A stretch of DNA of 64,000 bases, taken from Tetradesmus obliquus (lineage: Eukaryota; Chlorophyta; Chlorophyceae; Sphaeropleales; Scenedesmaceae). The stretch covers positions 2,666,001 through 2,730,000 of the forward strand of contig CP126200.1 in NCBI GenBank assembly GCA_030272155.1, given 5' to 3'. Numbering within the stretch: the first letter of the stretch is position 1; each line of letters starts with the position of its first letter. Shown piece by piece: positions 1,237 to 63,716 of this stretch. The translations under genes and the position numbers were made by a program. The notes under the pieces were generated by a model, which had not been told where the DNA came from, made no database searches, and saw nothing but the letters and a program-made list of their open reading frames with translations.

Positions 1237-4200
1237 TCAGTGATTGCCGTGCATCACGCAAGCAAGCACCATCAGCACGGCCCACCACGCGAAGCCAGCA
1301 GCCCTGACAGCAGCAGCGCCGCTGGGTTGAGCAGGCCCTTGAGAAGCACTGACGCTGCGTGTGGCACTGCTGCTGCTGTTTGCGTTGCTGGCGTTGTAAG
1401 TCACGCGGTACAGCGCTCCGGTGCCGTCGTCACTGATGAGCAGCGAGCCATCTGGCATTTGCTCCACATCCACCGGGCGGCCTGCAAGCGCAATGAAATA
1501 CAAATGCAGGGTCGAAGGGTTCAAGTCAGGCAGCCAGTTTGTAGTGCCGGCAAAATGACGTGTCACTGATGAGCAACGGGCCATCTGGCATCTGCCTCCA
1601 CATCCACCGGGCGGCCTGTAGGGTTATTAAAGCAAAAGCACACTGACACAAGAGTGAGGCAGAGAGCGTGCAATAAGATCAGGCTGGAGCATTGGAGCTT
1701 CTGACAGCTCTGCAGCAACTGGTGCGGTGTCTAGCAGCTGCTCCGCATCAATGGGCGGCCTGTGGTGTTGTTTATTGAGGCATGAGCAGAGGCAACTGAC
1801 AGAACGAGGCAGTGAATGTACACCACAAGCTGGCTGAAGCACTGCGGCTCTTGCAAGCTCTGCGGCAGCTGGTGCGCTGTGAGCAATGCGCTGTGAGCAA
1901 TGCGCTGAGTTGACTGCACTGATAGACAAAACGCCTCAGCAAACAAGATAGTTACATACATGAAATTGACCCCACCAACGAGCATCTGCAACAAGGTGTC
2001 ACAGTACAACCACAGGCCCCTCAACTGCGCTCACCCCATGTGAAGTTGTGCGCGTTGTCATTCTCGTTCTGCAGCCAGCCGCTCGCAAACGGCTCGTACT
2101 CAGACACCGCATTTGTGCCATTAGCAACCCGCAGCATCACGATGCGGTAGCCAATTTTGGGGGCCCTGTTCCAGCTGCCGTGCTCTGCAATGAAAGCCGT
2201 GCCGTCATACTCGCGAGGGAAGGCGCCAGGGGTGCTGTTGCTCCAGCGGTAGAAGCGCATTCCCAGGGGTGCTGTGTGGGGCCCCAGCGCCTGTACTGGC
2301 TGCCGATTAAGGGTCGGGTCTGCGTCAGAAAACGGGCCGCAGTAATGCAACAGCACCAGCAGCAGGGCATCGTCTCAGCAGATCACCATGCACATCACCA
2401 TGCACAACCAAAAAGTCACAGCCATGTGCATGGCAGCTGCAGCATGTCACTGCACGGAGACAAGAAAGCAGGATTCACGCCACGCACGACTCACACCATG
2501 TTAGTCATTACATTCTTCATGCTGAGCAGACAGGAAAATCTGCGTTGCATTTTCCTGTGCGTGCTCACCAGAGCAGTTGACCACAGTGCCGTTGGGGTTG
2601 AACTCCGGATCTAGCAGCGGCTTTCCCGCCCCGAAATCCCTCGCATACGGGTCGCCTGATCCTTCGGTGTGGCAGTACGGGTGCCCAAAGTTCGGAATGC
2701 TCGCCGGTGTCGTCGCGCCGGGCCGGGCGAGGACGGTTGCGGAGTTGGCCGGGATACTGTTGAGCTCGCAGTCGGGCACGTCGTTGCCGATCTTGTCTCT
2801 GCCGTTGTCCTGCGAAAGATAAGCAGTATGTCGGATCCAGGAAGTCAGCGCTATGTCAGGCACGCGATCTGATGGGACCTTGACTGAAGATCTAGTGTGC
2901 TTCTGCCGCGTACCAACAAGCATTGCTGGTTTAAGTAACATGTTGATTGCATTTGCAGCAAAACACTGTCAGTGTGCACTGCGTAGAGGCCTCCAACCAG
3001 CTCCCACGGTTGTCAGTGTGTAATGCAGCAAGCAAGTCACGTCGCTGCTTGCTGCCGTGATGAGGATTACACGCGCACTTACCGTGAAGTAGAGCTCTCC
3101 TGTCTTCGGGTGCCAGTCAAAGCCAACACTGTTGCGCACACCTGCAGGCAGTGCAAGCAGTACAGCCAGCAAGCAAGCAGTAAAGAGCAGCGCATCAAGG
3201 CGACAAAAGCAGCCAATCAGGCAGAACAGACAGCACACGCAAGCAGCATTTAAAGCACATGATGTGAAGTAGTCATGCTGTGTGCTGAACATGTCCTGCT
3301 TTGCACACCAAGACGGTAAGCGCGAGCTATGCATGCTATCTGGGCAACAAAAAAGTCCAGCAGCACAGGGCTGTTGCAGAAGCAGATCCAGATCAATCAC
3401 CTACACACTCACACCTTCTTCTGCAACTGACATCATGTGCAGTGTACATGTGCTAGCTGCTGGTTTAACAGCTGTGCGCCATGCAGGCATGTTCAACTTG
3501 TTGCTGATTAGTTACTGCCAAGTCTGTTGCCCCCCTCTCCTACCTGTAGCCAGCTGCCGCCCCTGAGGTGACATTCAGCGAATACAAGGTGCAAAACTGC
3601 ATGCCCAGCAGGGCACAAACTGCGTGCAGACATTTGCAATCTCTATACCACTGCTCACCTGTAGCAAGTTGCCGCAGCTCTCCCGATGTAACATTCAGCG
3701 AGTACAGGCTGCCAAACTGGATGCCCTGCGCAGTGCGGTTCAGCTTGCACACGTTGCAGGGCACGCCCACTGCCAGCACCAGCAGGCCATCAGGGGCGAA
3801 GCGAAGCACGCGGCGGCCGTGCCAGCGGTCACCCGGCAGCCTGTCTGTTATGACAGACTTGTTGCCTGTGAAGGGCTGCAAAGAGAATGCCACATGGCGG
3901 CAGCAGCAGCAGCAGCAGCAGTGTTGATGGTGAAGATTTGCTTGGACACAACGCGCACGTGCACGTGCACCCTGCAGTGGCCTGCTGCTGCTACCTCCTG
4001 CATACGCTGGCAACTCAACAAATTCCAAGTCATATGCTGACGTTCGGCTGGCACCAGCACACTGCCTTCTCTAAGTGCCCAAGACAATGAAGAACAAACA
4101 AAAACCAAAGACGAACAATGACAAACAAGAAACCATGTGAAGCCTACCTCATTGCGCAGCGCATAGCTGTGCACATTTGGCAGCCGCCACACCATGCCCT

Positions 4201-5078
4201 TGCCGTCCTGAAACCCTGACAGTAACAGGTCTGAACCCTGAACCACGATGCCATTGGGTGTGTCACTCCTCAATAGTGTGCCGCTGAAGTCTGGCACTCC
4301 ATTGCTGTCTTCGTCCACAATGTAGTAAACCTGCAGCAGGGATTACGCACGTGTTGCGACATGTGATCTGTGCAACAGTTGCTCAGGTGAGGCTGGTGAT
4401 CATTATATCAGCATGCAAGGCTGGATGGATCATCGTTAAGTGTCAGACGGGATGAGCTGTACATAGGCAGGTGATTTCGGCAAGCAGCTGCATCATGCGA
4501 CTTCTAGCTGTGTATCTGGGTGACTGCGCAGTCCTGCATGCAGCCCACGCAACGTGCTGCTGCTGCTGTGATGGCCAGAATGCTGCGCTATACTTACGTT
4601 TCCCACGGGGTTTTTGCCGTCATCAGATCCAGCAGACCCCACATACACAATGGTTGACCCATTGACCACAGTAGCTGAGATGGTGCGTGCTTTGGGCAGG
4701 CCATCTTGATACACACTGATGTTGAACCCCGGGGGTACAGTCAGCAGCTGTGGCTGCAGGCCCTTTACTTCTGGCACTGGCTCTGCTGCGTGTACTGCAA
4801 AGGGTTTCAAGGTGAAGGTGGTTGGCGGTGCAGCGTGTCAGTGCAAACGCATGGAGGGTGACATGTGGTGAAGAGGCACCACTGAACACAACTGCAGGCA
4901 GCACGCCCCTGGACGTCGCTATGCGAGCAGTATCACGACAAGTGGAGTTTAATGAAGCCTTACATGCATTGAACAGAGGCATGCCTGCAAGTTTACTGTA
5001 TGAACAGGCGAGTTACTCACCAGCAGATGACCACAGCAGCAACAGTAGCTGTAGCACAGCGAAGCCGATACAGCCCAT
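1237..5078 (-). CDS. PQQ-type sugar (L-sorbosone-like) dehydrogenase, secreted and possibly GPI-anchored
   Basis: The product is predicted to be a beta-propeller sugar dehydrogenase of the glucose/sorbosone dehydrogenase family, which oxidises sugars with pyrroloquinoline quinone. Eight exons read 5021-5078, 4598-4794, 4148-4330, 3659-3875, 3083-3141, 2569-2809, 2035-2295 and 1237-1481. All junctions keep frame and give 486 residues. Family blocks appear in order: VGFDWHPKTGELYFTDNGRD with the following GND.P.CELN, then NFGHPYC, LGPHTAPLGMRFY, FIAEHGSWNR and the closing GRPVDVEQMPDGSLLISDD. The N-terminus (MGCIGFAVLQLLLLLWSSA followed by VHA) is a signal peptide. The C-terminus ends in a hydrophobic stretch after a Ser/Gly/Ala-rich linker, as GPI signals do. 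The acceptor of exon 7 was chosen at 2295 because the nearer AG breaks frame. Family assignment is firm; substrate and anchoring are inferred. Confidence 0.85.
1562..1765 (-). repeat. two acceptor-edge copies of dehydrogenase exon 8
   Basis: Two partial copies of the start of the last exon (GRPVDVEQ region) with a preceding CAG lie at about 1563-1615 and 1718-1760, between exons 7 and 8. The nearer copy has a one-base insertion that shifts frame. The more distant one has diverged further. Intron sequence around 1650-1735 is also echoed at about 1800-1890. Confidence 0.75.
3535..3600 (-). repeat. donor-edge copy of dehydrogenase exon 4
   Basis: The last roughly 55 nt of exon 4 (FGSLYSLNVTSGELRQLAT region) recur here with their own GT donor, downstream of the intact exon at 3659-3875. 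A small deletion alters the copy. Confidence 0.8.
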
Positions 5079-5650: not shown

Positions 5651-5654
5651 GGAG

Positions 5655-6180
5655 TCATGTTGCTGGCTGCCTCTTGCTCGCTGCCATGCTGCCATGCTGC
5701 CCGATTCAGCTTTAGCCTCGCGCCGCTGCAGCCCAGCCTGCTCCTTGCAGCATGCGCAGCATAAACATGACGCCTTGCTCAAAGCCAACCGCACCACAGC
5801 ACTATTGCTTCTTCTTGCTCGCCGCCATGTACTGAGCCATGCCGCCCTGTGCTGCAGCCATGCTGCCGGGCTTGGCCTTTGACTGCAGCCGCTGCAGCTT
5901 GGCCTGCCGCTTGCATCACATCATGATATGTCAAAGGCATCGTCACCGCCATCAGTGCTGCTTCTTGCTTGCTGCCATGCTGCCGGGCTTGGCCTCGCGC
6001 CACTGCAGCCCAGCCTGCTCCTTGCACCAGCTGCAGCATAAACATGACGCCTTGCTCAAGGCCAACCGCACCAAAGCACTAGTGCTCTTCCGCCATGTAC
6101 TGCGCCATGCCGCCCTGCGCAGCTGCCATGCTGCCGGCCTCGGCCTGATCCTTGCACCAGCTGCAGCATGAACATGACGC
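5655..6180 (-). repeat. tandem copies of the VWA gene's terminal coding segment
   Basis: Three to four imperfect units, roughly 130-190 nt each, repeat the final coding segment and stop-codon region of the VWA gene (residues around KPGSMAAAQGGMAQYMAASK). They lie at about 5655-5770, 5774-5910, 5960-6050 and 6052-6180, all downstream of the stop at 6206-6208. They therefore sit in 3' UTR or intergenic sequence. Confidence 0.8.
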
Positions 6181-6205
6181 CTTGCTCAAAGCCAACCGCA
6201 CAACC

Positions 6206-9200
6206 CTAGTGCTTCTTCTTGCTCGCCGCCATGTACTGAGCCATGCCGCCCTGCGCAGCAGCCATGCTGCCGGGCTTGGCCTTGGACTGCAGCCGCTGCA
6301 GCTTGGCCTGCTCCCTGCGCTGCTTCTCATGCGCCAGGCCAGCCAGGCGCCGCTTGCTGTTGCCGGCAGCGTCGTCCCAGTCAAACGCCAGCCGCGAGTC
6401 GGCCTGCAGATGTGAGGTAACATGCAGAAAGACAGCCAAGGTTGTTCAGGCAGTGTGTACGATATAATGAAGTACGAGTGGAGGTAAGGGGGGCGTTCAG
6501 AAGTGCAGAAGCACAGCTGCATAACGATGGTGCTTGCAGGAAAGCAGCACACGCAGGTGGGCTTGCGCCAGGCCAGTCAGGCGGCGCTTGCTCTTGCCGG
6601 CAGCATCATATCAGTCATACGCCAGCCGCAAATCGGCCAGCACAGGTGCCAGACAACAATACACAGATGTGCAGGGAACAGACACAGTGGTGACACAGCC
6701 ACGAGTCAGTCTGCACAGGTGCAGGCAATAACAACACAGCTATTCTCGTACAAGACACAGTGGTGAGATGTGACGAGTTCACAAGCACTGTGTCGGGCAT
6801 GCGCCAGCCGGCAGTCAGCTTGCACACCCAGCAACACACCAGATCACAAAACCCCAAAATGTACACACCTGCACAGGCCCAACACAAAAAAACCACCTGC
6901 GCAGACCCCACAGCAACCCACCTGCACGCTTGCCCAGCCCTCGAACTCGCTCATGCACTGTTCCACCTTGCCATTTGGCAGGTAGTTGGTGCACAGCGCG
7001 CGCAGCACGGCAGGGTCTGCCCGCTTCTTCTCAGGGCTGCCGATGATGAGGCCGTGCACACCACAACAACACAGGCACAACCAGCTATGGACAGGCCAGC
7101 TTTGCCTCAAAATGCGGCAGTGCTGCAAAAGCAGTGCATCTCAACACCACAATCAAACAAAAACCCACCTGCACAGACGCCCAGCCCTCGAACTCGCTCA
7201 TGCACTGCTCCACTTTCCCGTTTGGCAGGTAGTTGGTGCACAGCGCGCGCAGCACCGCTGGGTCTGCCCGCTTCTTCTCAGGGCTGCCGATGATGAGGCC
7301 GTGCACGCGCAGGCCCATCTTCTCTTTTGCTCCGGATAGCTTCTGCATGATTTCCGGGCCTGGCTGCCGCAGCTCCCCGTCTGCAGGCAGAAAAGGCAGG
7401 CAGTGCAGCGAGTTTGGTGTCTACCAGTGCAGCAGCAGCAGCTTCTCCTTCGCCCGGAGTACTGTTTGCAGTACAGGGGCCCTGGCTGGCTCAGCTCGCC
7501 GTCTGCATTCATAAAAAGGCAGGCAGTGCGGAAGATCAAAGGGGACCAATGCAGGCGCAGGCCCGTCTTCTCCTTCGCGCCAGACAGCTTCTGCATGATT
7601 TCGGGGCCGGGCTGCCGCAGCTCCCCGTCTGCAGGCAGAGAAAAGGCAGGCAGAGGAAAGGCAGGCAGAGCGGAAGATGAGTTGGACACCAATGCACGCG
7701 CAGGCCCATCTCCTTCTTCGCGCCAGATAGCCGTTGCATGACTTTAGAGGCCGGGCTGGCGCAGCTTCTAACACATGCGCACCAAACATGGACATCAACC
7801 TTTCCCCCCCACCTGAGACCAGCAGGATGTCACTGTTGGCCCATTTGGCATCTGTCAGCCTGTTGAGGCAGCGCCGCAGCGGCTCGTTGAAATTACTGCC
7901 GCCACACCATACCAGCACCCAGCACCTGCCACGGCCCCCACCCTCACCCAACATGACCAGCACCATCCAGTGCACTTCAACAGTGCCAAAAGCGACAATG
8001 CGTATTTAAAGCAGTCAGCACAGCAGTTTGCAGGCATACAAACACAAGGCCGGCCCCTACCTGAGACCAGCAGGAAGTCGCTGTTGGCCCACTTTGCATC
8101 TGTCAGCCGGGTCAGGCAGCGCCGCAGCGGCTCATTGAAGTCACTGCCGCCATCCCACGCCGACACCCAGCACCTCGCCATTACCCACCCACCCCCTGAC
8201 AGCACCGGACACCGCCTTACGTTCATATGCATGAACACGGTGCTGAAAAGAGACAGTGCGTAGTGGTAAGTAAGCCAGCAAAGCTGATTGCAAGCATCCA
8301 GAACACTAAACACCACCCCAGCGCCGCACCTGAGACCAGCAGGATGTCGCTGTTGGCCCACTTTGCGTCGGTGAGCCTGTTGAGGCAGCGCCGCAGCGGC
8401 TCGTTGAAGTCGCTGCCGCCGTTGAACAGCGCCTCCAAAAAGTCCAGCAGCCGCAGCAGGGAGGGCATGTCCACGCCCAGCTCCACCTCACGCACCTGAA
8501 AGCGTCAACAGAGAAACTTTTTACTAACCAACTACCACCACCCTGCAACTGTGGACACAGCGCTGCAGCAGGCACACAAACAGCACTGCGCCTCAAAAGG
8601 CATAACAACTCACCTCCGCTGGTCCCGCGAACCCAAACATGAAGCAGTCCCGCTCCTGCTCCTTCGCAGCCCGCATGCACTCAAGCGCGAGCGCCTTGGC
8701 CACAGTCTCGCGCGGCCCCCTCATACTGCCACTCGTATCCACACACAGCAGGATCGGCCCGCGGTCTGCGGTGGGGCGGATTTCGCGGCGTTCGGGGTTT
8801 ATGGTTGTGGGGAACTCGCCCCAGCCGTCGCGCTCGTAGGTCTGCAGGCCTTTCTCGGCCATCTTGGCGTAGAAGAGCAGCTTAGACTGACGCACCAGGC
8901 GGCCACGCGCCAGCATAGCAGCCTCTGCAGCTCGGCGCAAATATGATAAGTGTGAAAGCGATTGATACCGGCAACACACAGGGAAATAAAGGCATGAACG
9001 GTGTATAATAGTGTCCAGCCACATTCAGTGTGAGATGTCAGAGTAGATTGGACTGGCGCACCAGGCGGCCACGCGTCAGCATGGCGGCCTCTGAGAGAAA
9101 TTTAAAGGGAAAAGAGGACGGAGTGTGTTGTGTGTGCTGTATCCTGGTGTGAATGTTTGAAAGCAGCTTAGACAGGAGCAGCAGGCCGCACACACCGCAG

Positions 9201-11022
9201 GGAGCTACCCCAGCCAAAGCCTCAAAGTACCACAGCCAGTCTCCTAAGTAACAGTGTTCATCACTGTTCTCTCACTCGCTGGCAGCAGCCTGCTGATGTC
9301 ATCGCTGCGTGTGAGGCCGCATGCAGTCACACGCGCAGCCTTTCAACTTGAGACTTTCAAGCGCATGTAACATCAGAAGTAACACATCATAAACGGTGTC
9401 ACTGTCCCACCTGCTGGCAGCAGCCTGCTGATGTCGTCGCTGCACTGCACTCACAGTGTGAGGCCGCATGCGGTACACCTGCCGCCGTTCAAGCCGCATA
9501 CAACATCCATATTATCACATTGATAACAGTGTTGACTTCTCACCTGCTGGCAGCAGCCTGCTGATGTCATCGCTGCGGGTGAGGCCGCGCGTCTCCTGCG
9601 CCTCCAGCACCGTGCGCAGCAGCCCAGCCCGCCCGTTCATGTCCAGCAGCTGCACAGGAGCGCGCCTGCAGGGCCGCAGCCGCGCAAAAGAATGTTTAAA
9701 ACCTTCTAACAGTGTATATGACTGTTTTAACACAGTGGCTTGCATGCTACACGCCACATGCAGACACTCCCATCCAGCCCGGCGCGCCTCCTTTGACGGC
9801 ATGCTTGCCAGCATGTTTTGCCTCCGCCGCATCGAACGCCTCCATGTCATGATAACTCAGCTCACGTGCTGGCCACTCACCGCAGTGGCCCCCAGCCGCC
9901 GCCCCTGCCCAGGCTGCGCACCAGGTCACGCAGCTCCTTCAGGTCCTCCAGCTTGCGCCGCAGCTCATCAAGCTGGCTCCAGCCCTGGCAACAAAAATAA
10001 ACATGTCACATGATGTCTTATGTTGTGTTAATTTGTTGAGTGGCGTACAACATGCACACTTGAATCTCCTTGAGGTCCTCCAGCTTGCGCCCAAGCTCGT
10101 CCAGCTGGCTCCAGCCCTGCAGTAATGCATGTGTTATAATGTGTTGTAAAGTTATCAAAACAGACATGCCACATGCCTGCTCATTCCAAAGCAGAAAGTA
10201 GCACATTGCGCAAGCCAACAGGAAGCACAGACACAGGAGCAGCACGTACGTGCTGTCCTACCCTTTACAGCCAACACAGCCGTAGGCAGCACTTGCCAGC
10301 AGCGCAACTCACTTAACCAGCAATTTTGCCCTCACATCCCAACAGCAACTCCTGCACCCAAAGCATTCTACCCCTCAGCCCAAAACCCTCACCTGCCACC
10401 TCCAAATGTCGCCCTGCAGCTCAAACCCTGAACCGCCCAGCAGCGCCTCCAAACCCTGAAATGCCCGCCCAGCCTTGGTCAACGCCTCCATGGGCTCCTG
10501 CCAAGCCCCAAACCCTCAAACCTCAAGCCAAAATTAGTTGCCTAAACCCTCACCTGCGTCCTCCAGATGTTGCCCTGCAGCTCAAATCCTGAACCGCCCA
10601 GCAGCGCCTCCAAACCCTCAAACGCCCGCCCAGCCTTGGTCAACGCCTCCATGGGCTCCCACCACTGGAAATATAACGCTTTGACCAGCTCAACCGCCAG
10701 CAGCTTCTCTGGCGGCAGTGCCTTGGTCAACCTCCATCAGTCCCAGCCAAGCCCCAAGCATTATACCTTACGCCAAAAACCCTAAACTCTAAAACCTAAA
10801 CCCTCACCTGCCGCCTCCAGATGTTGCCCTGCAGCTCAAACCCTGAGCCGCCCAGCAGCGCCTCCAAACCCTCAAACGCCCGCCCAGCCTTGGTCAACGC
10901 CTCCATGGGTTCCCGCCACTGGAAATACAACGCTTTGACCAGCTCAACCGCCAGCAGCTTCTCTGGGGGCAGCGCTGCTAACATGGGGCTGAGCTTGGCG
11001 GGTGCAGCCTTGGGCACAGACT

Positions 11023-11053
<31 letters not shown>

Positions 11054-11624
11054 CAGCAGCAGCAGTGCAGGGTGGAGGCCATGAGATGAGATGTACGTGA
11101 ATGGTGAGGGTTGTGCTGTTGGATAACAGCAGAAAGAACAGCCTCAAACAGTGCAGCTGGCCTGACGTGTTGCATGGGCTACCCTTGCCTGCTGCTGCTC
11201 CTGCTGCTCCTGCTGCTGCTGCTACAGCCAACACATCCCCTCCGCAATGGCTTGAACACATTTCCTCCTCCTCCTGCCCTTGGGGCTCCCCGCACCCCTG
11301 CATGCCGCACTAGCGGCTTGACTCGCTTGTGCTCTTAAATTTAATGCCCAACAAACATCAAAGCATGGCATGCCTCCACTCACTTCCTCCCGTCCACTGA
11401 TCCAGTGTGCTGCATCCTCCTACTGCTGCTGATACATGCAACACAGTCACCCCCAACACAGCACTTCTGCCAGCCACCCACGCACCTCCTCCTCCTGCAC
11501 TTGAGGCTCTCCACCGCCCCTGCGTGCTGCGCGTGCCGCCTTCTCCTGTGCGATGAGCTCCGCGATGCTCTCAAACTTGTTGCCCTGCGCATCCACCTCG
11601 GGCTGCTCCTCCTCCTCCTCGATG

Positions 11625-11661
<37 letters not shown>

Positions 11662-12856
11662 CCAGCAGCGGGGGCGGCGGATGATCAGGTAATGGCACAT
11701 TGATGAGTGACTGTTGTCTAAATGGATGATGGTAGGGTGCGGCTTCCGTGGTCACTTTGTGAAGCACCCACAGGAGGGCGCAAGACACGGCAGGAGAGGC
11801 AGCAGGGTTGTGCTACCACGTGCGGTGCACTGCAAGCATCCTGTCTGACTACAGCACGTGCTATGTGAGCTTGCATGCAGCTGCTGCTGCTGCTGCCGTG
11901 CTGCTGTGCTGTCTGCGCTGTGCTGCGTGGTCACCTGCCAGGCGCTTGTGGAAGGTGCAGGTCAGCTCCAGCACACTGCGCAGCAGCGCCTCCTGCAAGC
12001 AAGCAGGGACAAGCACAGCAAGACAAACAAGATAGTTGAAAAGGCAAAGGATGTCGCATCAGAAGAGCCGGGGCACCAGAATTCATCACAGGTCATAGCA
12101 GCCCAAACCACCCCCAGCGCAGTTCCAAGCATACCAGCAGCACTTTGCTCCTGCTGCATGGCACATATCAGCATGCATCCCACCACTGTTCAGCTGAATA
12201 TATCCTGTGCTGCAGGCAAACTCCAAACCCTAAGCCTGAAGCCCTCAAACCCTCACCTTCACAGCCGGGTACTTCTGTGCAAACCTCGACACACCAAGCT
12301 TTGCCAGCCCCCGCAGCAGCGTGGTGCGCAGCGGCTCTGCAGGCCATGCAAGATCTTCCACGCTATGCCCTACTGTAAAGCCCTCTCCGCTACTCTTGAG
12401 CTGCTGTATTGCCTCGTCATCGGGCAGCAAGCCGCGGTTTAGCGAGGCCTTCCAGGCGCTCAAACCGCGGCTGATGTGGGCCATGGCTTCCTGCGAGTCT
12501 GCGCTGCTGCTGCTGCTGTCGCTGCTGCGCTGTGTGCTGACGTGTGCGATGCGCAGTACCCAAGGCATGTGAGAGGGTGAGATGTCACCCACATCTCCAA
12601 GGCCATGCAGCAGCGCAGTATGCCCTGCAGCAGCCGTGTTGCTGCTGTGGTGCGGTGCTGCTGCTGCTGGCGGCTCAGCTGCTGGTGCTGCAGCTGCCAG
12701 AGGCGTTGGCAGATGTGCGCGTGCACTGCTCTGCTGCAGTGGACGACAGCTGGGGAGGTGAGCAGGCCTGCTGAGTGTTGAGAATGAAGCTGAACGTTGG
12801 TTTTGGTGGCTGCTGATGCGTCGGTTGAGCCCGCATGGGGCTCTGGCGTGCAGCAT
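6206..12856 (-). CDS. ViaA/CoxE-like von Willebrand factor A domain protein, likely organelle-targeted
   Basis: Ten exons: 12257-12856, 11935-11992, 11486-11625, 10808-11020, 9881-9984, 9544-9665, 8614-8924, 8330-8495, 7169-7380, 6206-6403. All junctions keep frame, giving 707 residues. The C-terminal half matches bacterial ViaA in layout: a helical block (LDELRRKLEDLKELRDLVRS then LGRGGGWGPL), then a VWA domain with the MIDAS motif DTSGS inside GPILLCVDTSGSMRGP, a second metal-ligand block GGSDFNEPL, and ILLVSDGEL. In bacteria ViaA works with the MoxR-type AAA+ ATPase RavA; that an analogous partner exists here is inference. The N-terminus (MLHARAPCGLNRRISSHQNQ...) is Arg/Ser-rich and free of acidic residues, like an organellar transit peptide. 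Acidic (GIEEEEEQPEVDAQ) and Lys-rich tail segments are lineage-specific. The start is the most upstream ATG seen and is less certain. Confidence 0.8.
6923..7050 (-). repeat. donor-edge copy of VWA-gene exon 9
   Basis: A close copy of the last ~125 nt of exon 9 (from GLIIGSPEKKRADPA to EFEGWASVQ) with a GT donor lies downstream of the intact exon at 7169-7380. Confidence 0.85.
7440..7770 (-). repeat. three acceptor-edge copies of VWA-gene exon 9
   Basis: Three successive copies of the exon 9 start (DGELRQPGPEIMQKLSGAKE region) lie at about 7440-7515, 7540-7632 and 7690-7770. All are upstream of the intact exon. The middle copy is the best preserved and keeps CAG; the outer ones are decayed. 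Confidence 0.85.
7805..8160 (-). repeat. two donor-edge copies of VWA-gene exon 8
   Basis: About 95 nt of the exon 8 3' end (NGGSDFNEPLRRCLNRLTD to ILLVS) recur at about 7809-7905 and 8060-8155, each followed by a GT donor. The intact exon is 8330-8495. Confidence 0.85.
9040..9095 (-). repeat. acceptor-edge copy of VWA-gene exon 7
   Basis: A copy of the exon 7 start (EAAMLARGRLVRQ region) lies upstream of exon 7. Its CAG acceptor is degraded. Confidence 0.7.
9265..9475 (-). repeat. two donor-edge copies of VWA-gene exon 6
   Basis: Copies of the exon 6 end (GLTRSDDISRLLPA region) lie at about 9268-9320 and 9408-9470. The second keeps a canonical GTGGG donor. Confidence 0.8.
10066..10125 (-). 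repeat. acceptor-edge copy of VWA-gene exon 5
   Basis: A copy of GWSQLDELRRKLEDLKE with a CTGCAG acceptor lies just upstream of the intact exon at 9881-9984. Confidence 0.85.
10393..10735 (-). repeat. two donor-edge copies of VWA-gene exon 4
   Basis: Most of exon 4 (from PPEKLLAVELVKALYFQW to GFELQGNIWR) is repeated at about 10554-10722, and a shorter part again at about 10393-10500. Both carry GTGAGGGTTT donors like the intact exon. The first copy is nearly identical to the original, which suggests a recent event. Confidence 0.9.
11021..11066 (-). repeat. CTG tract at the acceptor of VWA-gene exon 4
   Basis: CAG on the plus strand is CTG on the sense strand. The slightly interrupted tract ends directly in the CTGCAG acceptor of exon 4. 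Confidence 0.9.
11630..11662 (-). repeat. CTG tract at the acceptor of VWA-gene exon 3
   Basis: The sense-strand CTG tract ends in the CTGCCAG acceptor of exon 3. Confidence 0.9.
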
Positions 12857-16163: not shown

Positions 16164-19041
16164 TCACGTGAACGACTGCTGCTTCCTGTCCCTGTAGAAT
16201 CCGCCAGTTTTGAAGTCCTCCTGCGGCAGCAGCGCCAGCCACACGGGCGTGTCTGCGCCCGCTGCCGCAGACTGCGTGCCTCGCCAGCTGGACATGTCGG
16301 TGGAGCAGTACCTGTGCAGCATGGAGCAGCAGCAAGCAGTGGAAAGTGTCAAGAGGAAAGTGACATTACACTACAATGCACTGCATTTGGGATTGCTGCA
16401 TGTGCTGTGTTGTGCCTCGCCAGCTTGACATGTTGATTGAGCAGTACCTGCGCGCAGAGCATCGTGCAGCAGCAGCAACCAGTGGCGAAGTTTTAAAGTA
16501 GTGTAACGTATAGCATGCAGGTTTGGATGTAATTTAACCCACTGCCACCACCACCACCACTGTACTGTGATCATCACACACACACGCACACACCCATGCA
16601 GTGCATGCTGTGTGTATATGCAGTGTGTGCAGTCTGTGTACAGATGCTGCGTGGCAGCTGCCGGCTCACCCGGGGCAGCAGCAGTTGACCATGACCCCAG
16701 CGTCCTTCAGCTGCTCAGCCAGCACACGCGTGTAGCTGCTCTCAAGCGCCTTGCTGATGCCTGGCAGCAGCAGCAGCAGCGGCAGCGGCAGCGGCAGAAG
16801 CGGCAACACCAGTCGCACTGCAGGTTGGAACAGTTTGCAAGCTTTACATGGCGTCTCCTGTGCAGCTGATGATCTCACTCTGCTTCAGAACAGGCATAGC
16901 AGTTGCGAAGCGCAACAGTCGGACAGCTGACATGTACTTCAGCAGAAGCAAGCATCAGGTGCTCTGCAGTGTGGGACACGCCATCAGTGCAGCTGTTCAC
17001 AAGCCACAGCGTACACATTTCACATGCGTGTGTGCCTCTGCAACAGTGCCAGTTTCTAGTACGTGTGTATATGCGTGCCCTGCTCAATGCTGCAAGCCTG
17101 GGCCAGCTGTGTCAACGCAAGCTCCGTCTTGTCAACGCAAGCCCCAGAAATAAGACAGCAATACGCCTCACCGTACATGCTGCTGGGCCAGCCCTCCTGT
17201 GTGTGCCGCCCTGCTCGGATGTCCTCCACAAACTTGTCGCCCAGCTGTACCAGCTCATCAACGCCTGGCAGGTGCATACGTGAGACACACCACAACCGCC
17301 TCAGTAAGAGCAAGCTGCAACGCTGGTTGCATCATAAGACAGCAGCTATGGGTCTCACTTGCTTTCTGCTTCAATGAGTTGCAGTAACAAAACAGCACGG
17401 TGCAGCCACGCCTGCCGTCGAGCCACATGCACAATCAGCGCAAGGGCCGCTGCTGCTGCTGCTGCTGCTGCATCATGACCCTCCCTACCTGATGGTGATT
17501 CAAAGCGCGCCCGAAGCTGCTCAGATGGGATGCCCCGCAGCACGCCAGCCCTGCAGCAACATGTCAGCAGTAAGCCTTGGGGCAATGCATGTCTACGTTA
17601 CCTCACTGCACAGAGACGGAGGGAGGAGCAGACAACAGATGTCATGCGGTGGGTACATCAACCGTGCGGCTGCCTGGCCTTGGTAGTGGCGGGACAAGAA
17701 ATATGTTGAACGCTTTATAAAACTGCTGCTGCCACAACAGTGTGTGTGCAGCAACCCGCGCACGTGCTGGACACGTTGACGATGCGGCCGCCCGGCTTGG
17801 TCAGCAGCGGCAGCAGCGCCTCGCAGGCCGCCTTTGTGCCCAGGAAGTTGGTGGCGATGGTGGTGGACGCCTCGTCAGCACCAAAGGTGTTGCCCTTGTA
17901 CGCAATGCCTTCGAATGCAGCAGCGGCACGGCGTGCAGTACTTGTGTAAGCACGGGGGGTGTGAGCATCAGGCAGTCCAGGCTGGCATGTCAGCGATGTC
18001 GGCAACGGTGCTGTAGCGCCCTGTTGCTGTATGATCGATACTCACGAGCAGTGCATGCATGTTGGAAGGGGGCGATTACGTTCTTGGAAGGTGCATTGTG
18101 GTGAACGATTTGTTACATAGTTCAAGCAGTACTGCAGATACAGGGCCGTGCAAAACGTGTGCAAGGCAATTCAATGTAGGAATGCAGCTGCTCAGCTCGC
18201 CAGCCGCGCACCTGCATTGTTGACCAGTATGTCCAGCTTGCCGTGCTGCTGCTGCAGCCATTTGGCAAAGGCCGCGACTGAGCCAGCGTTGGCAATGTTC
18301 AGCTGCTGGAACTGCACTGTTGAGCCTGAGCTGCCTGAGGTGGGGCGGGATGAACGCATGCACGAGAGAGGCAGGGTGACAGAAACAAGGTGTTCGTATC
18401 AGCGGTATCAGATGTCCAGATGCTGGAAGTGCAGTTTGGAGCCTGAGGTCCCTAGCGGGACGTGAAAGAGAATGAAAATGTGTGTTTGTGGGTAGTGGGG
18501 AGGAGGAGGAATCAGCCAGCTGTTAGGATCGGCAGATTAGGATTGAACATGTTGCACATGACCGGAACTCTGGTGAAACATTGCAGGAGTGGAGGGGCTG
18601 TTGTAAGCTGAAAGACAGTTGCATCAAAGCAGGAGCGCTTGTGTGACATGTTCTGGTGTTGCCCTGCAACAAACAGGCAACAGCAGTTCACATGCCATGC
18701 AACGTTCTGCACTTACTTGGCAGTTGCTGCAGCTTGCTGACAGCGGCTTGACCCAGCTCCTCTGCACAGAAGCAACATACAGGCACAGAACCACTGTCAG
18801 TCTGGATTGGTGTGCATCTTGCTATGCAGCAGCTGCTGTGGATCATGCAGGGATGCTGGAGTGCAGTCTGAGAGGTTAGAGCAGTGAGCCAGTGTATGTT
18901 TGTTGCCCAGGCTGCTCTGCAACAATCAGACATGCAAGCAGATGTGCTCCAGCAGACCCGCAGACGAGCAATGTCTCCATGCATTACCAGCCACACATCT
19001 ACAGCCGGCAAAAGCGCACACCAAAAGCCTGTGCATCGACG

Positions 19042-26431: not shown

Positions 26432-26480
<49 letters not shown>

Positions 26481-27293: not shown

Positions 27294-27324
<31 letters not shown>

Positions 27325-32869: not shown

Positions 32870-32932
<63 letters not shown>

Positions 32933-33946: not shown

Positions 33947-33984
<38 letters not shown>

Positions 33985-55300: not shown

Positions 55301-56589
55301 CGCGGGCACGGTTTTACGCACAAGCAACCAGATCACAAGCATGCACTGGCGCGGTGGTTATTCTACTTCAGCTTGCAAGCAAAACAACAGCAGGGGAGGA
55401 GCAAATGCGCTGCAATATGTTTTTTTCCCGGGTACCAGCAGGGTGAACGGTGCACCGCCTGCTGTAACCAGTGGTTTGTGTGCTGCCCCATGGCAGGCAT
55501 GCAAGCATGGAGAGCCAATACGTGTAAACAAGGCGAAAAGTATGCTGCACAGTGCACCAGGCAAGCACACCAACAGGCACCACAGCGGAGCTTCAGGCGC
55601 AAACACACACGCAGTTCAGCAAACGACCACATGTAGCTGCAACAGGCAGACACATCTGCAAGGATCGACCAAGCAGCCAAGCAATCTGCCTTACTTAATG
55701 CATAGACACCAAAAGAACAAAAGAAAGCCACACAGCAGGTGCGCCCGTCATTTCATAATAAGGCTCATTGTCGACAGAAAGCGGACGAAGCGGCGCCACC
55801 AAGCCTGCTGCATTCTCTGCATGCCATGCAAGCGGCTCACAAACACGCACCACGCCCTGCTAAAGTAGTCAGCTGAAGCCAAGCGCCCTGCTAAAGTAGT
55901 CAGCTGAAGCCAATCGCAGAACAGTAAGCTGTATCCGCAAAGCACGTGCACATCAGGCACAAAGCGCAGAGGTTGATGCTCAACAGCGCTGTCAACGCGC
56001 AAGCTGGCAGCACAATGCTGGTAGCTCACGCGCTCTCAGATCACCAAGCCTAACCAGAGAGTGACGGATGACGTTATAACATGCCTGGAGAGAGGAATGT
56101 GACAGATCTGCCGCATGAGGTGATCAACACACACACACCCAACAGCAGACAGCTGCCATCTGATAATGGACTCTGCGTGCCCGACAACATCAGGTAGCTG
56201 CAATTAATCAGCATACAGAATAGCAGGCGGCACAGCTGCCTTCAAAGCAGCCGACGGCAGATGCCGAGCCCTGTGCAGTTCCAACACAGCCCACCATCAC
56301 GTGTGCCCAGCCCACCATCCTGTACAGTCCCTGTCCCAACACAGCCCACCATCACGTGTGCCCAGCCCACCGTCACATCTGCCCAGCCCACCATCCTGTA
56401 CAGTCCCTCTCCCAACACAGCCCACCATCACATCTGCACCGAGCTGCTGCTGATGCAGCATCAGAGATCAGTCACGTCTGGACCAACTGCTGCTGACCCA
56501 GCGCTGCTGCTGCTGCTAACGCAGCGACTCCAGCGCTCGCTCTGAATCCATGATCATACCGAATAGCCTCCAACATCAAACACCGCATC
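52308..56589. other. 4.3-kb stretch without a recognised gene
   Basis: This is the largest gene-poor interval in the window. It should contain the Nudix promoter and the 3' flank of the polyAla gene. The longest frames (minus 53512-54021; plus 55341-55868) resemble no family I know and lack a convincing exon chain. CTG tracts are scarce here. A ~30-bp direct repeat (CCCTGCTAAAGTAGTCAGCT core) occurs twice in tandem at 55854-55914. Imperfect CCCAACACAGCCCACCATCA units fill about 56279-56440. Confidence 0.5.
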
Positions 56590-56686
56590 TACTCTTCACA
56601 ATTGCGCCCAGTATGTCACTGCACACCTCCACCAGCCGCTGCCTGTCACCCGGCCGCACCGCCTCATCCTTAGCACGCCCCACCGC

Positions 56687-56719
<33 letters not shown>

Positions 56720-56830
56720 GGCAGCAGTGACGCCGCTGGTGCTTGGTGTTGCGGTGCGCAGGCACTTGGCCAGGAACTGCAGCAGCAGGCCGAGCGCGAC
56801 TGCCTCCTTAATGCATGCGGCATCTGGGAT
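56590..56830 (-). repeat. internally deleted copy of the last exon of the polyAla gene
   Basis: On the sense strand, a copy of the exon start (EAVALGLLLQFLAKCLRT region, about 56740-56820) is joined via a short polyAla tract to a copy of the exon end (RLVEVCSDILGAIVKS, about 56590-56670). Roughly the middle 800 nt are missing. It lies downstream of the intact exon and stop. Confidence 0.85.
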
Positions 56831-56855
56831 TATACCGCCTCAAACACCACAACAA

Positions 56856-57442
56856 TCAACTCTTCACGATTGCGCCCAGTATGTCACTGCACACCTCCAC
56901 CAGCCGCTGCCTGTCACCCGGCCGCACCGCCTCATCCCTAGCCAGCTCCATCAGCTTACCAACCGCCTGCCCCACAACATCAAGCTGCTGGTTGTGCGCA
57001 GCAGCAGCAGCCTCTCGCTCCTGCTGCATGCGCAGCAGCGCCTGCTGCTTCACACCCAATGAGGCTTTTGCCAGCACCACCTGCTGCCGCAGCTGCTGCA
57101 TAGCGCCTTGTAATGCCTGCAGCTCAATCGCCGGCGTGTGCTGCTGCTGCTGCAGCTGCGCTGCAACTTTGCGTGCTGCTGCTGCCTCATTTGCTGCTGG
57201 GATGACCATGTAAGCCAGCTGCTTGCAGAGTCTCTGAGAGCGGGAAACTGCCATGACAGTGCGAAGGAACAGGTCCCGGCCCTGAGGGGACATGACAGAG
57301 CCGCCCTGCTGCTGCTGCTGCTGCTGCAGGCCAAACAACCCTAGCTCGGGCGCCTCTGCCGGTGCATCTGCTGGGGTCGCTGCTGCTGCTGCTGCTGCTG
57401 CTGCGGGTTCCTCGCCTTCACCAGGGGTATCAGCTTGAGCTG

Positions 57443-57474
<32 letters not shown>

Positions 57475-58512
57475 GGCAGCGGCTGCTCCAAAGCTGGTGC
57501 AGCAGTATCGCTGCTTCCATGGCTGAGGTTGCGGTCCAGATGCCTGCTGCTGCGCGCCTCTGATGCCGCTGGCGCTGCTGCTGCTGCTGCTGCCTCGCTT
57601 GCTGTGGCTGCTTCTGCAGCGCTGCTGCTGGCAAGGCGGTGCAGCTTTGCTGGCCTGCCCCCTGCCTCATCTGCTGCCTGATGAGCAGTACTGTCCCTGG
57701 GCCGTTTTGCAGGTGAGGCCGCTTGCTCCTGTGCATTGCCGCCACTGCTGCTGGGTCCGGCTGCTGCTGCCGCTGCTGCTGCCGCTACGGCAGCAGTGAC
57801 GCCGCTAGTGCTAGGTGTTGCGGTGCGCAGGCACTTGAGCAGAAACTGTGGCAGCAGGCCGAGTGCGACTGCCTCCTTGATACATGCAGCAGCCTGCGGA
57901 GGTGGGTGACAGCAGCATGCACAGCAAAGCAACGCATCACATTGCGGTTAGCGGCATGTTGGCGTATGGGCGAGAGCAACACGGCACACAACGACAGCTG
58001 CAGCTGGCTTGTGTTACACGCGCAACAACTGACACCAAGCCACGCAGCCTAAGCCCAGGAACTGTGGCAGCAGGCCGAGTGTGACTGGCTCCTTGATACA
58101 TGCGGCAGCCTGGGGCCAAAACAACAGCACATCACACCAGCACAGCATATGAACGTCAGCGCCTCGTCTGGATGTTGCTGTTATGCTGCCCAGCACACCT
58201 GCAACGGGCATGCCTGTCTGCATCTTCAGCTGCCACGGCCGTGACAGTTCACCATGCACTTTGCAGGATGCATCCAACTTGCCCGTGAGCAACACAGCCG
58301 CAGTGCTGAGTACCCGTGCATCCATTCTATCAGCAGTCGTGCCACTGGGTGCCGCAAATACAAGGATAGGAGCAGAGTTTGGTGTGCGGGGCGGGAGAAC
58401 TTGAGTGCTAACTCGTATGGAAACACTCCGCACCTGCTTCTTTGTGCTGACCACATCATCCAGCACCTTCTGCAGCTGTGCTGCATCAAAGAACGCGCCA
58501 GCTGGCAGCCCT

Positions 58513-58572
<60 letters not shown>

Positions 58573-60083
58573 CTGCCACCACCTGCAGCCTCTGCAGGCA
58601 TGCCACTGGTGCATGTTGTGGCTGTTGCTGCTGCTGCTGCTGCTGCAGGTTGTGATCCAGGTGCTGCGCGCAGCAGTAGGCCTTCCAAGTCACCTACACT
58701 GATGCCAGAGGGAGCCTGCTCATTTGACAGCGCAGGCACAGCTGTTGCAGCTGGTGACCGTGCCGGCACTGCAGCTGCTGCTGCTGCTGCTGGGTCCTCT
58801 GGGGCCAGCGCAGGCTGCTGCTGCTGCTGCTGCTGGCTCAGCAGCATCTGCTGCGCCCTGCTGACCATCTGTGCCCTGCTCAGGCGCTGGCTAGCACACG
58901 AGGTGTTAGAGCCGACACGACCCGCCAGCAGCTCAGGATCATCCTCATCGTCCATGTCTGCTGCTGCTGCTGCTGCTGCTGCTTGTGGAGGGCTTGGTGC
59001 TGCTGCTGCTGCTGCTGCTGGAGGGCTGGGCGCAGCTGGTGCTACTGCTGCCGCAGCAGCTGCCGCCGCAACAGCAGCGGCCCAGTTGTTGCTCTGCTGG
59101 TGCTCTGGCGCATGGCCTGCATGGCCTGCACTGCTGCCAAGCTGAGCTGCCATGGCCTCGCTAGGCAGCTGCTGCAGCGGCGGCGGCGGCGATGCTGCTG
59201 CTGCTGCTGCTTTGATGGCTTCTAGCCTGCCGAGCAGGTCTGCTGCTGTTGCTGACTCTGCAACTGTCAGCGTGCGCTGCAGCAATCCAGGTGCTGCAGG
59301 TGCTGGCATGCCAAACATGTTAGGCAGTCCAGGGATGCCTGATAAGGCGTGCTGCAAGTTTGTTACGTTGCTGGACGCAGACAGGTTGGACAGGTTGGAT
59401 ACGGCGCGCTGCAGGTTGCCGGTGCTGATGCCGATGCCTGCTGGTGACAGTGGGGAGCTGCCTGCTGCTGCTGCTACTGCTGCTGCTGCTGCTGCTGCTG
59501 CGTCGCAGTCATTGCCTGCCGCTCTTGCTTTAAGCAGGCTCTCCAACAGCTGCAGTTGGCTGGGAGTGCTTGCTGTCTGCAGCAGCTGCTGCTGCGCCAG
59601 CCGCTGCTGCTGCAGCTGCTCGCGCCTGTCCTGCACCTGCTTTGAGGCACTGCTTATGGCTTGCAGGAGACTGCTCATGTCTGTTGCTGCGCCCAGGCCT
59701 GCGCCTAACAGCTGCTGCTGCAGCAGAGCTCCTGCAGCACTGCTGGCCCCCAGCGCGCGCTGCAGGTTGCTGAGGCTGCTTGCCATGCTGAGACTGCTGG
59801 GATTATTGGTGTTATGCATGGTGGTTGCAGAGAGGCAGATTGCGTCCATGTTCTGCTCACTGCGGAGCGGGCTACTGCCTTGCACGCCCAGGGCAGGCGA
59901 GCTGGAAGTCATGCGAGCACGTTGCTCGTCCGCTCTTGCCTCAACCTGTTGATGGAAGGTTGAAAGTGGCAAAACACGCGTACAAGGTGACTGTACTTGC
60001 GTGTTGAAAGAGTGGGACGGGTGCTGACCAGGGTAAGGCCTTACCAGAGCCAATGCAGGCAGCCTCGTCGAACCAAACGACAT
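56856..60083 (-). CDS. unrecognised polyalanine/polyglutamine-rich protein
   Basis: I do not recognise this gene. Two large exons, 58434-60083 and 56856-57893, join in frame (STKKQ to AAACIKEAV) to about 896 residues. The first exon encodes a region rich in Ala, Gln and Ser, with helices such as SLLQAISSASKQVQDRREQL, repeated LSNLQ/NLQRAL motifs, and an Asp/Glu patch (DMDDEDDPELLAG). The second has a short folded-looking start (ACIKEAVALGLLPQFLLKCL), a polyAla/polyGln middle with a basic PAKRPRD (possible nuclear signal), and a helical C-terminus of ~150 residues (ALQGAMQQLRQQVVLAKASL; VGQAVGKLMELARDEAV). The composition suits a nuclear scaffold or transcription/RNA regulator, but that is only a guess. 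The true start may lie in an upstream exon; VEARADEQRAR at ~59940 could follow an acceptor CAACAG. Confidence 0.6.
58024..58118 (-). repeat. acceptor-edge copy of the polyAla gene's last exon
   Basis: A copy of AAACIKEAVALGLLPQFL with its AG lies upstream of the intact exon start at 57893. Confidence 0.9.
58511..58571 (-). repeat. coding GCT repeat (polyalanine)
   Basis: About twenty GCT codons on the sense strand of the unrecognised gene encode polyalanine. Unlike the intronic tracts this one is translated. Confidence 0.85.
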
Positions 60084-61668: not shown

Positions 61669-61710
<42 letters not shown>

Positions 61711-61795
61711 CAGTGCTCAGATGTATGGCATCACCACTAAATCAGCGCAAATACCATCGTAGCGCTTGGCGACAGCAACAGACGCCGCCGCAGCA

Positions 61796-61834
<39 letters not shown>

Positions 61835-63716
61835 CATGGCGGCTTGTGCTGCCCCTCTGCAGCCACTCCATGTGTCTACGAGTTTTGCAGACACCAGCTC
61901 AGCAGCAGGCGCTGCAAAGCCGCGGACTCCCGCCTCCCCACGCCGCAACCACGCACCCACACCCACACGCACTGCTCATGCACTGCTGATGCGCTGCACA
62001 CGCACATGCACCCACATGCACACACAGTCACATGCTCACACGCACCTGCACATGCGGACCTTCCTGTGCGTGTGCACATGCACGTGCATTGCACTGCACT
62101 GCACACGCACCCACATGCTCACACTGACACGCACCTGCACATGCGTATCTTCTTGCGCGTGTGCACGTGCAGCAGCTGCAGGCAGGCCTTGAAGGTCCAG
62201 CGCAGCGGGAAGGGCAGCCCGACCATGTACAGCACCTGCAGCCAGCACCCGCAGAGGCAGCAGGGTGTTGGCACTGCTGCCAAAAATGCGTGACTGGGCA
62301 GCCTGACCATGTACAGCATTTGCTGGCAGCGCCCACCAGAGGCGTTGCATGCTACCACGACATGACCCAGGAGCTGGAACACGGGCATATGTGCGGTGTG
62401 GTGCAAGTGTGCAGCCCAAGACAACAAGCAAAAAGTGACAAATAACTTGTAACAAGTGACAAGACGATGTGACAGGTAACGCATTCTCACCTGCAGCCTG
62501 CAGGGGTACATGCGGTCCATGACGTGCCCCACGCGCTGAAACACGCCGCGGTTGCGCAGCGTGGTGCCGATGTGCACCCCTGAGGTGTCCACCACCACGC
62601 GCAGCGTGCTGGCGCAGTGGCACTCGCCGATGAGCTGCCGCACACCATACTCCATCTGCGAGCAGAGTTGCGGAAGCAGTGGGCAGCAGCTTGTGGGGTT
62701 GTGAGGCAGGATTTCAGGCTGTTGTTTGCCAAATGCCATGAAGACAGTCACAGCCTTGGTGCGCTGGCGCCGCACAGCGCGCCGCAATGCAATATGGTTC
62801 ACTGCACGTTTATCACACGTCGCAAGCGATCACTACTGCATGGTACAGAACACAACAATGCAGGGCATGAAGTGCGCTTCATGCATCGCCGCACCACAAC
62901 ATGCGCAGTGCATATGCATAAACGCATGTAACAGCATCTCCCCTCCCCTACACACTCACGTTGGACACCAGCACGCGTGCCACCAGCTCCGGCCCATGTG
63001 TCCTGCTGGCGCTGACTGCTGCCCTGAAGTCGATCATGAGCCACAGGTGCCCTTCTGCATCAGGCCCCTCCCACCACGCAATGCGCTGCCACGCCGCCAG
63101 GTCACCTGCAGGCCCATATGCAATCAAGCAGGAGCACAGAATGCGCAGCTCTCAGTGATTACACAGATAGATTGGTATAACTCTTGGGACGTGTGCGCCT
63201 TTAGTATTAGCTCAAGGTGGTGGCACCTGCGCGTTGGTCGCCTTGGAACAACAAGCTTGAAGTCAATCATGAGCCACAGGTGCCCTTCTGCATCGGGCCC
63301 CTCCCACCACGCAATGCGCTGCCACGCCGCCAGGTCACCTGCAAGGACGTGTAGCAGCACCCAGCACATACAGTAAGTGAGCTGCGTGCGTGGCTGCAAA
63401 CAACGGTGGGATGTGACATGTTCCGGCTGCAGCAGTGACGGGCACAGCAGACCCTGTGCTGTTACATTGCGCACAATACAGAGGCACCCTGGGTACCCAA
63501 AACAGGTACAAGCGCAGCCTTTGGTTTGTGTGATACAATACAATACTCTCAGGACCAAAACCTGCCTCAGGCTCACGCCCAGCTAGGACTTGGTGCTTCC
63601 CCAACTTAGTTTACCTGGTGGTATGAAGCTGTACTTGGCGTGCCATGCTGCAAACTCCTTGATGTTGGACATGGTGCGGTCCATGGCCACCAGCGCATCC
63701 TTGAGGCTGCGAGCCT

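Follow-up and report, generated by a model that had tools for sequence, protein, structure and literature searches.

Copies of exon ends in a Tetradesmus obliquus window

The window, by which we mean the whole 64,000-nucleotide stretch analyzed here (C10:2666001-2730000 of the 104.66-Mb, 17-contig genome of Tetradesmus (Scenedesmus) obliquus), holds about 12 genes on both strands, and many of their introns contain partial copies of the ends of the exons that border them. It had been proposed, from the sequence of the window, that there are more than 50 such copies in nine of 12 genes and that every one obeys a single rule, by which copies of an exon's acceptor edge lie only upstream of the intact exon, copies of its donor edge only downstream, and copies of a terminal coding segment only after the stop codon. 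As a comparison sample we used four arbitrarily chosen 50-kb blocks elsewhere in the genome (B1-B4; 38 genes, 256 introns).

Two genes, modelled by spliced alignment of homologues, illustrate the pattern. The PEPCK (ATP) gene (24747-30018, plus strand; PF01293) has 12 coding exons and was aligned with the database protein P0001 and two relatives; P0001 is a T. obliquus protein (OEZ85_003713) that shows 98% identity to the window protein over the query and differs from the gene at 5 of 651 aligned residues, and the intact exons were taken as the reference. Two acceptor-edge copies (27384-27424 and 27491-27536) lie upstream of exon 27590-27751. Exon 28108-28286 is preceded by one acceptor-edge copy (27985-28028) and followed by two donor-edge copies, the first of which (28340-28412) keeps the donor GTGCGT, and the second of which lies at 28475-28515. 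Further acceptor-edge copies are found upstream of exon 28760-28913 (28633-28705, of decayed look, with 4 synonymous and 10 non-synonymous differences) and upstream of exon 29224-29354 (29104-29155), and a copy of the terminal coding segment follows the stop codon (30041-30148).

The second gene, VWA/CoxE-like (6206-12568, minus strand; PF13519/PF05762), was modelled from P0121 and P0122 and consists of ten exons (12257-12568, 11935-11992, 11486-11625, 10808-11020, 9881-9984, 9544-9665, 8614-8924, 8330-8495, 7169-7380 and 6206-6403, from first to last). Donor-edge copies occur downstream of exon 10808-11020 (two, within 10380-10721, absent from the list of the later copy search), of exon 9544-9665 (two, within 9278-9443), of exon 8330-8495 (two with the same junction, 8061-8151 and 7813-7903) and of exon 7169-7380 (6915-7059). 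The last of these differs from its exon in 8 codons over 138 exon bp, with 8 synonymous and 0 non-synonymous changes. Acceptor-edge copies lie upstream of exons 9881-9984 (10066-10116), 8614-8924 (9040-9090) and 7169-7380 (several, within 7478-7766), and upstream of the terminal exon 6206-6403, where the copy (6564-6637) has lost its acceptor AG and contains one stop. Copies of the terminal coding segment are also present after the stop codon (5739-6170).

The remaining models, except that of a PEPCK paralogue on C17, which was likewise set by spliced alignment, come from a small gene finder trained on the window and B1-B4, in which introns shorter than 45 nt are forbidden. It recovers plausible splice signals (CAG/GTGAG and TGCAG/G) and wrongly calls some copies exons; its models were cleaned by greedy masking of the weaker of two similar exons, a step that masks copies taken for exons and lowers the counts of whole-exon and both-coding repeats. 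Five of the finder-only window models have a Pfam match above cut-off, and an AKR2-like gene is backed by homologues; a wider check of the protein family PF00171 (14 matches) added little.

Self-comparison of the window, the check suggested with the original prediction, gave 82 similarity pairs, every one of them same-strand and thus direct, and all but two local (80 are less than 1,100 bp apart). A search of exons against their flanks after gene modelling found 62 exon copies, and 9 of the approximately 12 genes carry them, in good agreement with the numbers first proposed; the DHHC, ZIP and NUDIX genes and a small model (38925-39532) have none. Forty-five are splice-edge copies on the predicted side (24 donor-edge downstream, 21 acceptor-edge upstream) and 7 lie after a stop codon. 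The claim that every copy follows the rule thus holds for 52 of the 62 rows; one is contrary and nine (6 whole-exon, 3 interior only) fall into neither class. All six whole-exon rows belong to one gene (31478-38486) that the finder splits into several models, and the contrary row belongs to a low-complexity gene with a weak model (56468-59786).

For finer analysis we assembled a curated set of 12 genes, namely ten window genes and two PEPCK paralogues, leaving out the PH-like gene and gene 56468-59786. Eight of the 12 have copies, at 36 of 184 exon edges, and all 63 edge-reaching copies (62 at splice edges, one at a stop end) obey the side rule. This set is unevenly filled: 49 of the 62 edge copies sit in the three homologue-checked genes, and 32 come from PEPCK2, which was added after a protein search had shown copies there. 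PEPCK3, with 0 copies and a model containing 2 stops, was retained in the denominators. These paralogues, whose loci are C17:278283-291100 and C9:5782335-5787737, contrast sharply, with copies at 15 of 28 edges in PEPCK2 and at 0 of 22 in PEPCK3. A diverged VWA/CoxE paralogue (C11:2654043-2658580) also has 12 copies, which were dropped before counting (frame not resolved, 8 stops). Its best matches have 63-64% amino acid identity, and derivation of the window copies from this paralogue was discarded.

The pattern extends beyond the window. B1-B4 contain 130 copies (17, 9, 36 and 68 per block), of which 109 touch one exon edge, 11 both and 10 none; 21 of the 38 genes are affected, at 57 of 512 exon edges. 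One-edge copies lie on the predicted side in 101 cases and on the contrary side in 8. Taken with the curated set, 93 of 696 edges carry copies, a figure that includes the copy-rich gene picked after a match. With a length and complexity filter, the window and B1-B4 yield 247 local same-strand pairs and 0 inverted local ones (before filtering, B1 has 5 inverted pairs less than 1,500 bp apart); the array at 43704-44190 is one example of such direct, adjoining copies. The edge is reached to the base in 50 of 70 copies, and in the curated set the intron flank can be aligned beyond 8 nt in 38 copies and not in 17.

Spacing, placement and substitution pattern of the copies

Tandem duplication of DNA crossing a splice site, followed by splicing from the outermost intact sites so that the copies are skipped, very likely underlies this arrangement. 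The side rule is then its inevitable outcome: in a duplication across an acceptor only the second exon head runs into the rest of the exon, and the partial copy must therefore lie upstream, while the mirrored geometry puts copies downstream of donors and after stop codons. Since the rule is forced by tandem geometry, it proves by itself neither selection nor neutrality, and the part of the original prediction that read neutrality from it is not supported. The skipping of copies finds support in the proteins. P0121, the VWA protein from a transcript-like contig of 2,780 nt (the gene itself spans more than 6 kb), contains no copy, and P0001 is a PEPCK without copies.

The gap between exon edge and next copy has a sharp floor near 48 nt, for acceptors and donors alike, and is below 40 nt in 2 of 151 copies (whole-exon and interior copies were dropped from the edge statistics). 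After-stop copies have no floor, with gaps below 40 nt in 5 of 15 (Fisher P 6e-5), and its restriction to splice edges indicates that survival of a copy depends on splicing. On the acceptor side the floor may reflect a need for the duplicated unit to contain the branch site and pyrimidine tract. Of 151 copies, 93 have a nearest spacing of 100-159 bp, which lies within the proposed unit size of about 60-200 bp, and a smaller group falls at 180-259 bp. Most of the duplications measure 100-150 bp; a typical unit joins a ~56-bp exon end to ~70 bp of intron. First copies are spaced 110-139 bp at 41 of 93 edges, and in 57 of them the exon part is confined to ~33-75 nt (Kolmogorov-Smirnov P 5e-6 against uniform placement). 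Introns with copies are longer, as had been proposed, with a median of 486 bp against 255 bp for those without. Neighbouring copies within one array are not independent, and P values should be read only as guides.

The distribution of repeats over exons, introns and intergenic DNA is uneven. In 264 kb searched for local direct repeats, 110 clusters pair an exon with noncoding DNA. There are 29 intron-only pairs (16 clusters), of which 27 adjoin an exon-edge event and 2 are isolated; six pairs are intergenic, and no isolated intergenic cluster was found. One of the two isolated intron-only clusters in the five sequences is a minisatellite (35862-36129; a 29-bp unit repeated 9.2 times with 99% matches) lying, in our own model, in an intron of the PH-like gene. 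Under random placement, shares of 0.29 would touch one edge, 0.23 would be intronic and 0.21 intergenic, and in simulations every class is detected at a rate of 0.95 or better up to a synonymous divergence (dS) of 0.22. These class counts imply that edge-free duplications are either not made or not kept, and a uniformly high duplication rate is not supported. The accompanying claim that duplications inside exons are removed agrees with the small numbers of whole-exon copies (11 against ~37 expected) and both-coding pairs (5 against ~33 expected) beside the 151 one-edge copies, both counts being lowered by the cleaning of gene models.

Taken together, the substitutions in the copies do not look like those of decaying DNA. 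A neutral copy of a constrained exon is expected to show a ratio of non-synonymous to synonymous divergence (dN/dS) of 0.5, and we found 0.17 in the curated set (181 synonymous to 101 non-synonymous differences; P ~1e-16 against a context-corrected neutral synonymous share of 0.40, the copies not being fully independent) and 0.27 in B1-B4 (206 to 178). Differences at the three codon positions number 65, 37 and 207 in the curated set, against expected shares of 0.34, 0.34 and 0.32 with CpG context, and 92, 101 and 250 in B1-B4, so that substitutions are not blind to codon position and the expectation for neutral relics is not borne out. One premature stop is present in the curated set against 6.4 expected; another count gives 3 against 8.2. 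Splice dinucleotides are largely kept as well: in the curated set GT in 25 of 28 donor copies and AG in 26 of 27 acceptor copies, including 16 of 17 copies with unalignable flank, and in B1-B4 in 30 of 37 donor and 41 of 44 acceptor copies. An extreme case is the C17 copy 280891-281011, with 9 synonymous and 0 non-synonymous changes and one frame-shifting gap. The neutral decay supposed by the original prediction is not supported by these figures. CpG or base-composition bias was rejected as the cause of the synonymous excess, the neutral synonymous share with CpG context being only 0.25-0.28.

Copies that share one internal junction, and therefore probably one origin, differ from each other by 25:20 and 53:53 synonymous to non-synonymous changes, without a stop, against a neutral share of 0.25-0.28 (dN/dS 0.25-0.32). 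Over 20 such pairs dS (0.152) is close to the divergence of the intron flank (0.155), and dN is 0.046. Between copies and exons dS stays at 0.143-0.162 across flank divergences from 0.01 to 0.23, reaching 0.197 where the flank cannot be aligned (copies of fewer than 8 codons were dropped here), and several arrays combine a nearly identical intron flank with a differing exon part. Constraint fades toward the internal junction, dN/dS being 0.35 within 10 nt of it and 0.20 beyond 40 nt, and identical runs anchored at the exon edge exceed chance length in 12 of 82 copies against 4.1 expected. These four patterns point to recombination. After-stop copies, meant as an untranslated control, gave 6:18 in the curated set (3 copies) and a different result in B1-B4, a disagreement that led us to drop them from the substitution argument.

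Possible exchange with exon alleles and other candidate origins

We favor, at a probability of roughly 45%, an explanation in which exchange with exon alleles is added to tandem duplication. DNA across a splice site is present in tandem, often several times over, with the intact exon body joined to one copy; the partial copies lie on the far side, within the intron, where splicing between the outermost intact sites would skip them. Homologous recombination between copies and exon, including the exons of the other, diverged haplotype in this heterozygous diploid, would then renew the edge-proximal parts of the copies, so that exon-filtered, synonymous-rich sequence would be found in them even amid decayed intron. 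The copies would in that case be no passive relics. The flat dS across flank divergence is expected if allelic diversity contributes more to the differences than the age of the copies does. Arithmetic from dS 0.207 and dN 0.036 shows that import of alleles requires an allelic synonymous divergence of ~0.13, which is plausibly compatible, under strong constraint, with the 0.8% residue difference to P0001. That protein is tagged OEZ85, and another, OEZ86_007107, matches the C17 gene without a difference in 593 aligned residues, the genome analyzed here being the OEZ86 assembly; the two tags may well stand for the two haplotypes of strain UTEX 3031. According to PMC12636532, which cites Biondi et al. 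2024, T. obliquus is a diploid whose heterozygosity is extensive and whose haplotypes have diverged, and its genome shows gene-body methylation; the UTEX 3031 reference is titled telomere-to-telomere, gapless and phased in the reference list of the same paper.

Several points speak against this explanation. Alleles that entered once would leave shared-junction copies mutually neutral, and the synonymous excess among them (78:73 in all) would need repeated import. The allele exchange is a presumed step, and the synonymous diversity of ~0.13 that it needs is a calculated value. Simulated sister-chromatid exchange gives a synonymous fraction of 0.33-0.35 and no synonymous excess, so that without allelic diversity exchange is not a sufficient explanation. 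In B1-B4 the after-stop copies (26:26, 12 copies) are as synonymous-rich as edge copies, and exchange of alleles does not account for the near absence of exon-free repeats. Two other sources of the synonymous excess were set aside, unequal exchange between sisters on the strength of that simulation, and gene conversion alone on the argument that it cannot raise the synonymous share.

The same substitutions could instead reflect use of the copies. They might be taken up by alternative splicing, with the exon part translated and both its amino acids and splice site under selection, or, more broadly, form a genome-wide stock of spare exon ends within introns, translated, splice-competent, under protein-level selection and usable by splicing or recombination; we regard each of these as unlikely. 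The dN/dS of 0.17 against exons and of 0.25-0.32 between copies of one origin is what they would lead one to expect, as are the 8:0 and 9:0 ratios of VWA copy 6915-7059 and C17 copy 280891-281011, the retention of GT (25/28) and AG (26/27), also beside unalignable flanks (16/17), and the single stop where 6-7 were expected. A translated copy, however, needs a partner site in an open frame, and such sites accompany 18 of 79 acceptor copies, against 20 and 16 in control frames, and 22 of 72 donor copies, against 15 and 21. Moreover, copy spacing does not keep to multiples of 3 (16 of 62), constraint weakens toward the internal end, synonymous divergence does not track flank divergence, and P0121 and P0001 are without copies. 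Ordinary cassette exons were rejected on the same partner-site counts. Another view, which we consider improbable, is the neutral one of the original prediction, with tandem duplications arising at random everywhere, neutral across splice sites, removed in exons and then decaying. It would produce the side rule, the scarcity of exon repeats, the longer introns and the gap floor, several copies do look decayed (PEPCK 28633-28705, VWA 6564-6637), and an early, superseded count was neutral (32:40) where homology enters the intron for 9-25 nt; it is contradicted by the 110 exon clusters facing 2 isolated intron-only and 0 isolated intergenic ones, and by the synonymous excess. That contrast in clusters, together with the first-copy spacing of 110-139 bp and the narrow exon part, would follow if duplication itself were targeted to splice sites or the edges of exons, perhaps through a break or template switch that is coupled to transcription or splicing and has a preferred size. 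Such targeting still seems to us quite unlikely, because the size window can be argued to follow from the gap floor, a detection minimum of ~24-30 exon bp and a shortage of long units, junctions show only modest 4-mer excesses, and the synonymous excess is left unaccounted for.

Tandem duplication can also create introns, either by the AGGT model or as in potato, and the gap would then be a new intron in some arrays. Splice-crossing tandem duplications are already known as single cases, whereas here they are frequent. In the potato RdRp gene PGSC0003DMG402000361, as described in PMC4974935, a boundary-crossing tandem duplicate creates a new intron whose splicing is shown by RNA reads; the duplication likewise runs over the intron-exon boundary, the copies differ and the splice signals of the parental intron are retained. 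That case concerns one gene, however, whereas we count ~150 splice-edge copies in ~290 kb, most of which lack a usable additional donor or acceptor, and both checked proteins are without copies. Passages of PMC2891723 on AGGT intron gain of the Rogers type and on novel Drosophila introns likewise describe short coding tandem duplications beside or forming splice sites; that route depends on the duplicated exon segment containing a proto-splice site, and in T. obliquus AG/GT at matching positions is found in 24 of 151 copies, about the control level (117 of 906 position-shifted positions and 77 of 593 copy-free edges). Besides the potato-like geometry, intron gain could claim the closeness of the gap floor to the shortest modelled introns (the finder forbids introns below 45 nt) and an excess of better AG/GT pairs, with a summed score of at least 3 in 19 of 151 against 58 of 906 shifted (P 0.01) and of at least 6 in 10 of 151 against 25 of 906 (P 0.02). 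This score excess raises its odds slightly; the advantage over copy-free edges is not significant (P 0.12, 0.20; overall rank test P 0.16), in-frame potato-like sites (7 of 79 and 6 of 72) show no excess over shifted frames, and no more than a minority of copies could have arisen in this way. We regard intron gain, even in some arrays, as very unlikely. An assembly artefact is hardly credible, given that differences respect codons and splice sites, that copies occur in the window and all four blocks, and that the species reference is listed in PMC12636532 as telomere-to-telomere, gapless and phased.

Two other known systems bear some likeness. Mutually exclusive or tandemly duplicated exons also provide exon-like copies beside an exon that evolve in a coding-like manner, but the T. 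obliquus copies are mostly partial, with one splice edge and an abrupt end inside the exon. Introner elements lengthen or fill introns in algae; no dispersed family of this kind was seen within the five sequences, where 247 local same-strand pairs face 10 + 10 distant ones. Pairs were compared within each sequence (distant pairs 20 of 267, filtered), and they give no support to a family shared by introns of unrelated genes. Among the matches listed in the open literature, no paper describes systematic exon-edge copies in algal introns. With copies at this density, T. obliquus provides a natural experiment that bears on how introns grow from exons, how small a workable spacing can be (~48 nt) and whether sequence passes between copies and their exon. 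The observation behind the original prediction is confirmed and its mechanism partly supported; its simple ratchet is at odds with the coding-like evolution of the copies and with the virtual absence of edge-free repeats, and the exon-like behaviour of the copies is the testable surprise.

Copies in the other window genes and neighbouring repeats

On the plus strand, gene 21691-23507, which has no Pfam match and looks PsbP-like by eye only, has an acceptor-edge copy (22487-22533) upstream and a donor-edge copy (22920-22978) downstream of exon 22590-22728. All further copies are on the minus strand. The AKR2-like gene, whose homologues contain STI1/HOP-DP and ankyrin domains, has four donor-edge copies ~111 bp apart (within 43704-44079) downstream of exon 44145-44332 and two acceptor-edge copies (within 42943-43090) upstream of exon 42777-42868. 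In the CRAL-TRIO gene (PF00650), the acceptor-edge copy 63258-63338, upstream of exon 62960-63105, shows 2 synonymous differences in 81 bp and an intron flank dissimilar beyond 5 nt. A donor-edge copy (62046-62082) follows exon 62135-62235. Gene 1151-5078, whose SGL match is below its cut-off, carries a donor-edge copy (3544-3609) downstream of exon 3659-3875, and an acceptor-edge copy (1562-1615) lies upstream of exon 1286-1481; a short-chain dehydrogenase gene has one acceptor-edge copy (16412-16447) upstream of exon 16164-16311.

The PH-like gene, with its split model, has four donor-edge copies and one acceptor-edge copy around exon 32669-32768 (within 32181-32865). Acceptor-edge copies are also present upstream of exons 33515-33688 (two, within 33827-34077) and 37115-37190 (37256-37309), and donor-edge copies downstream of exons 34766-34985 (three, within 34293-34684), 35464-35742 (35241-35345, identical at 100 of 105 positions) and 37754-37886 (37569-37625). 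Gene 56468-59786, whose model is uncertain, has an acceptor-edge copy (58056-58109) upstream of exon 56895-57893, and other repeats, tandem and spaced, are found nearby, at 56287-56437 and at 56691-58107 (76-bp unit; segments repeated 1.07-1.29 kb away).

Runs of the trinucleotides CAG, GCA and CTG are very frequent across the window, and GCAG occurs ~20 times per kb in its introns and coding DNA and ~15 times per kb between genes. The ratio of observed to expected CpG is 0.47-0.61 in the window and B1-B4, and in noncoding repeats the rate of CpG transitions exceeds that of other G/C transitions about twofold, a pattern consistent with the gene-body methylation that PMC12636532 cites.

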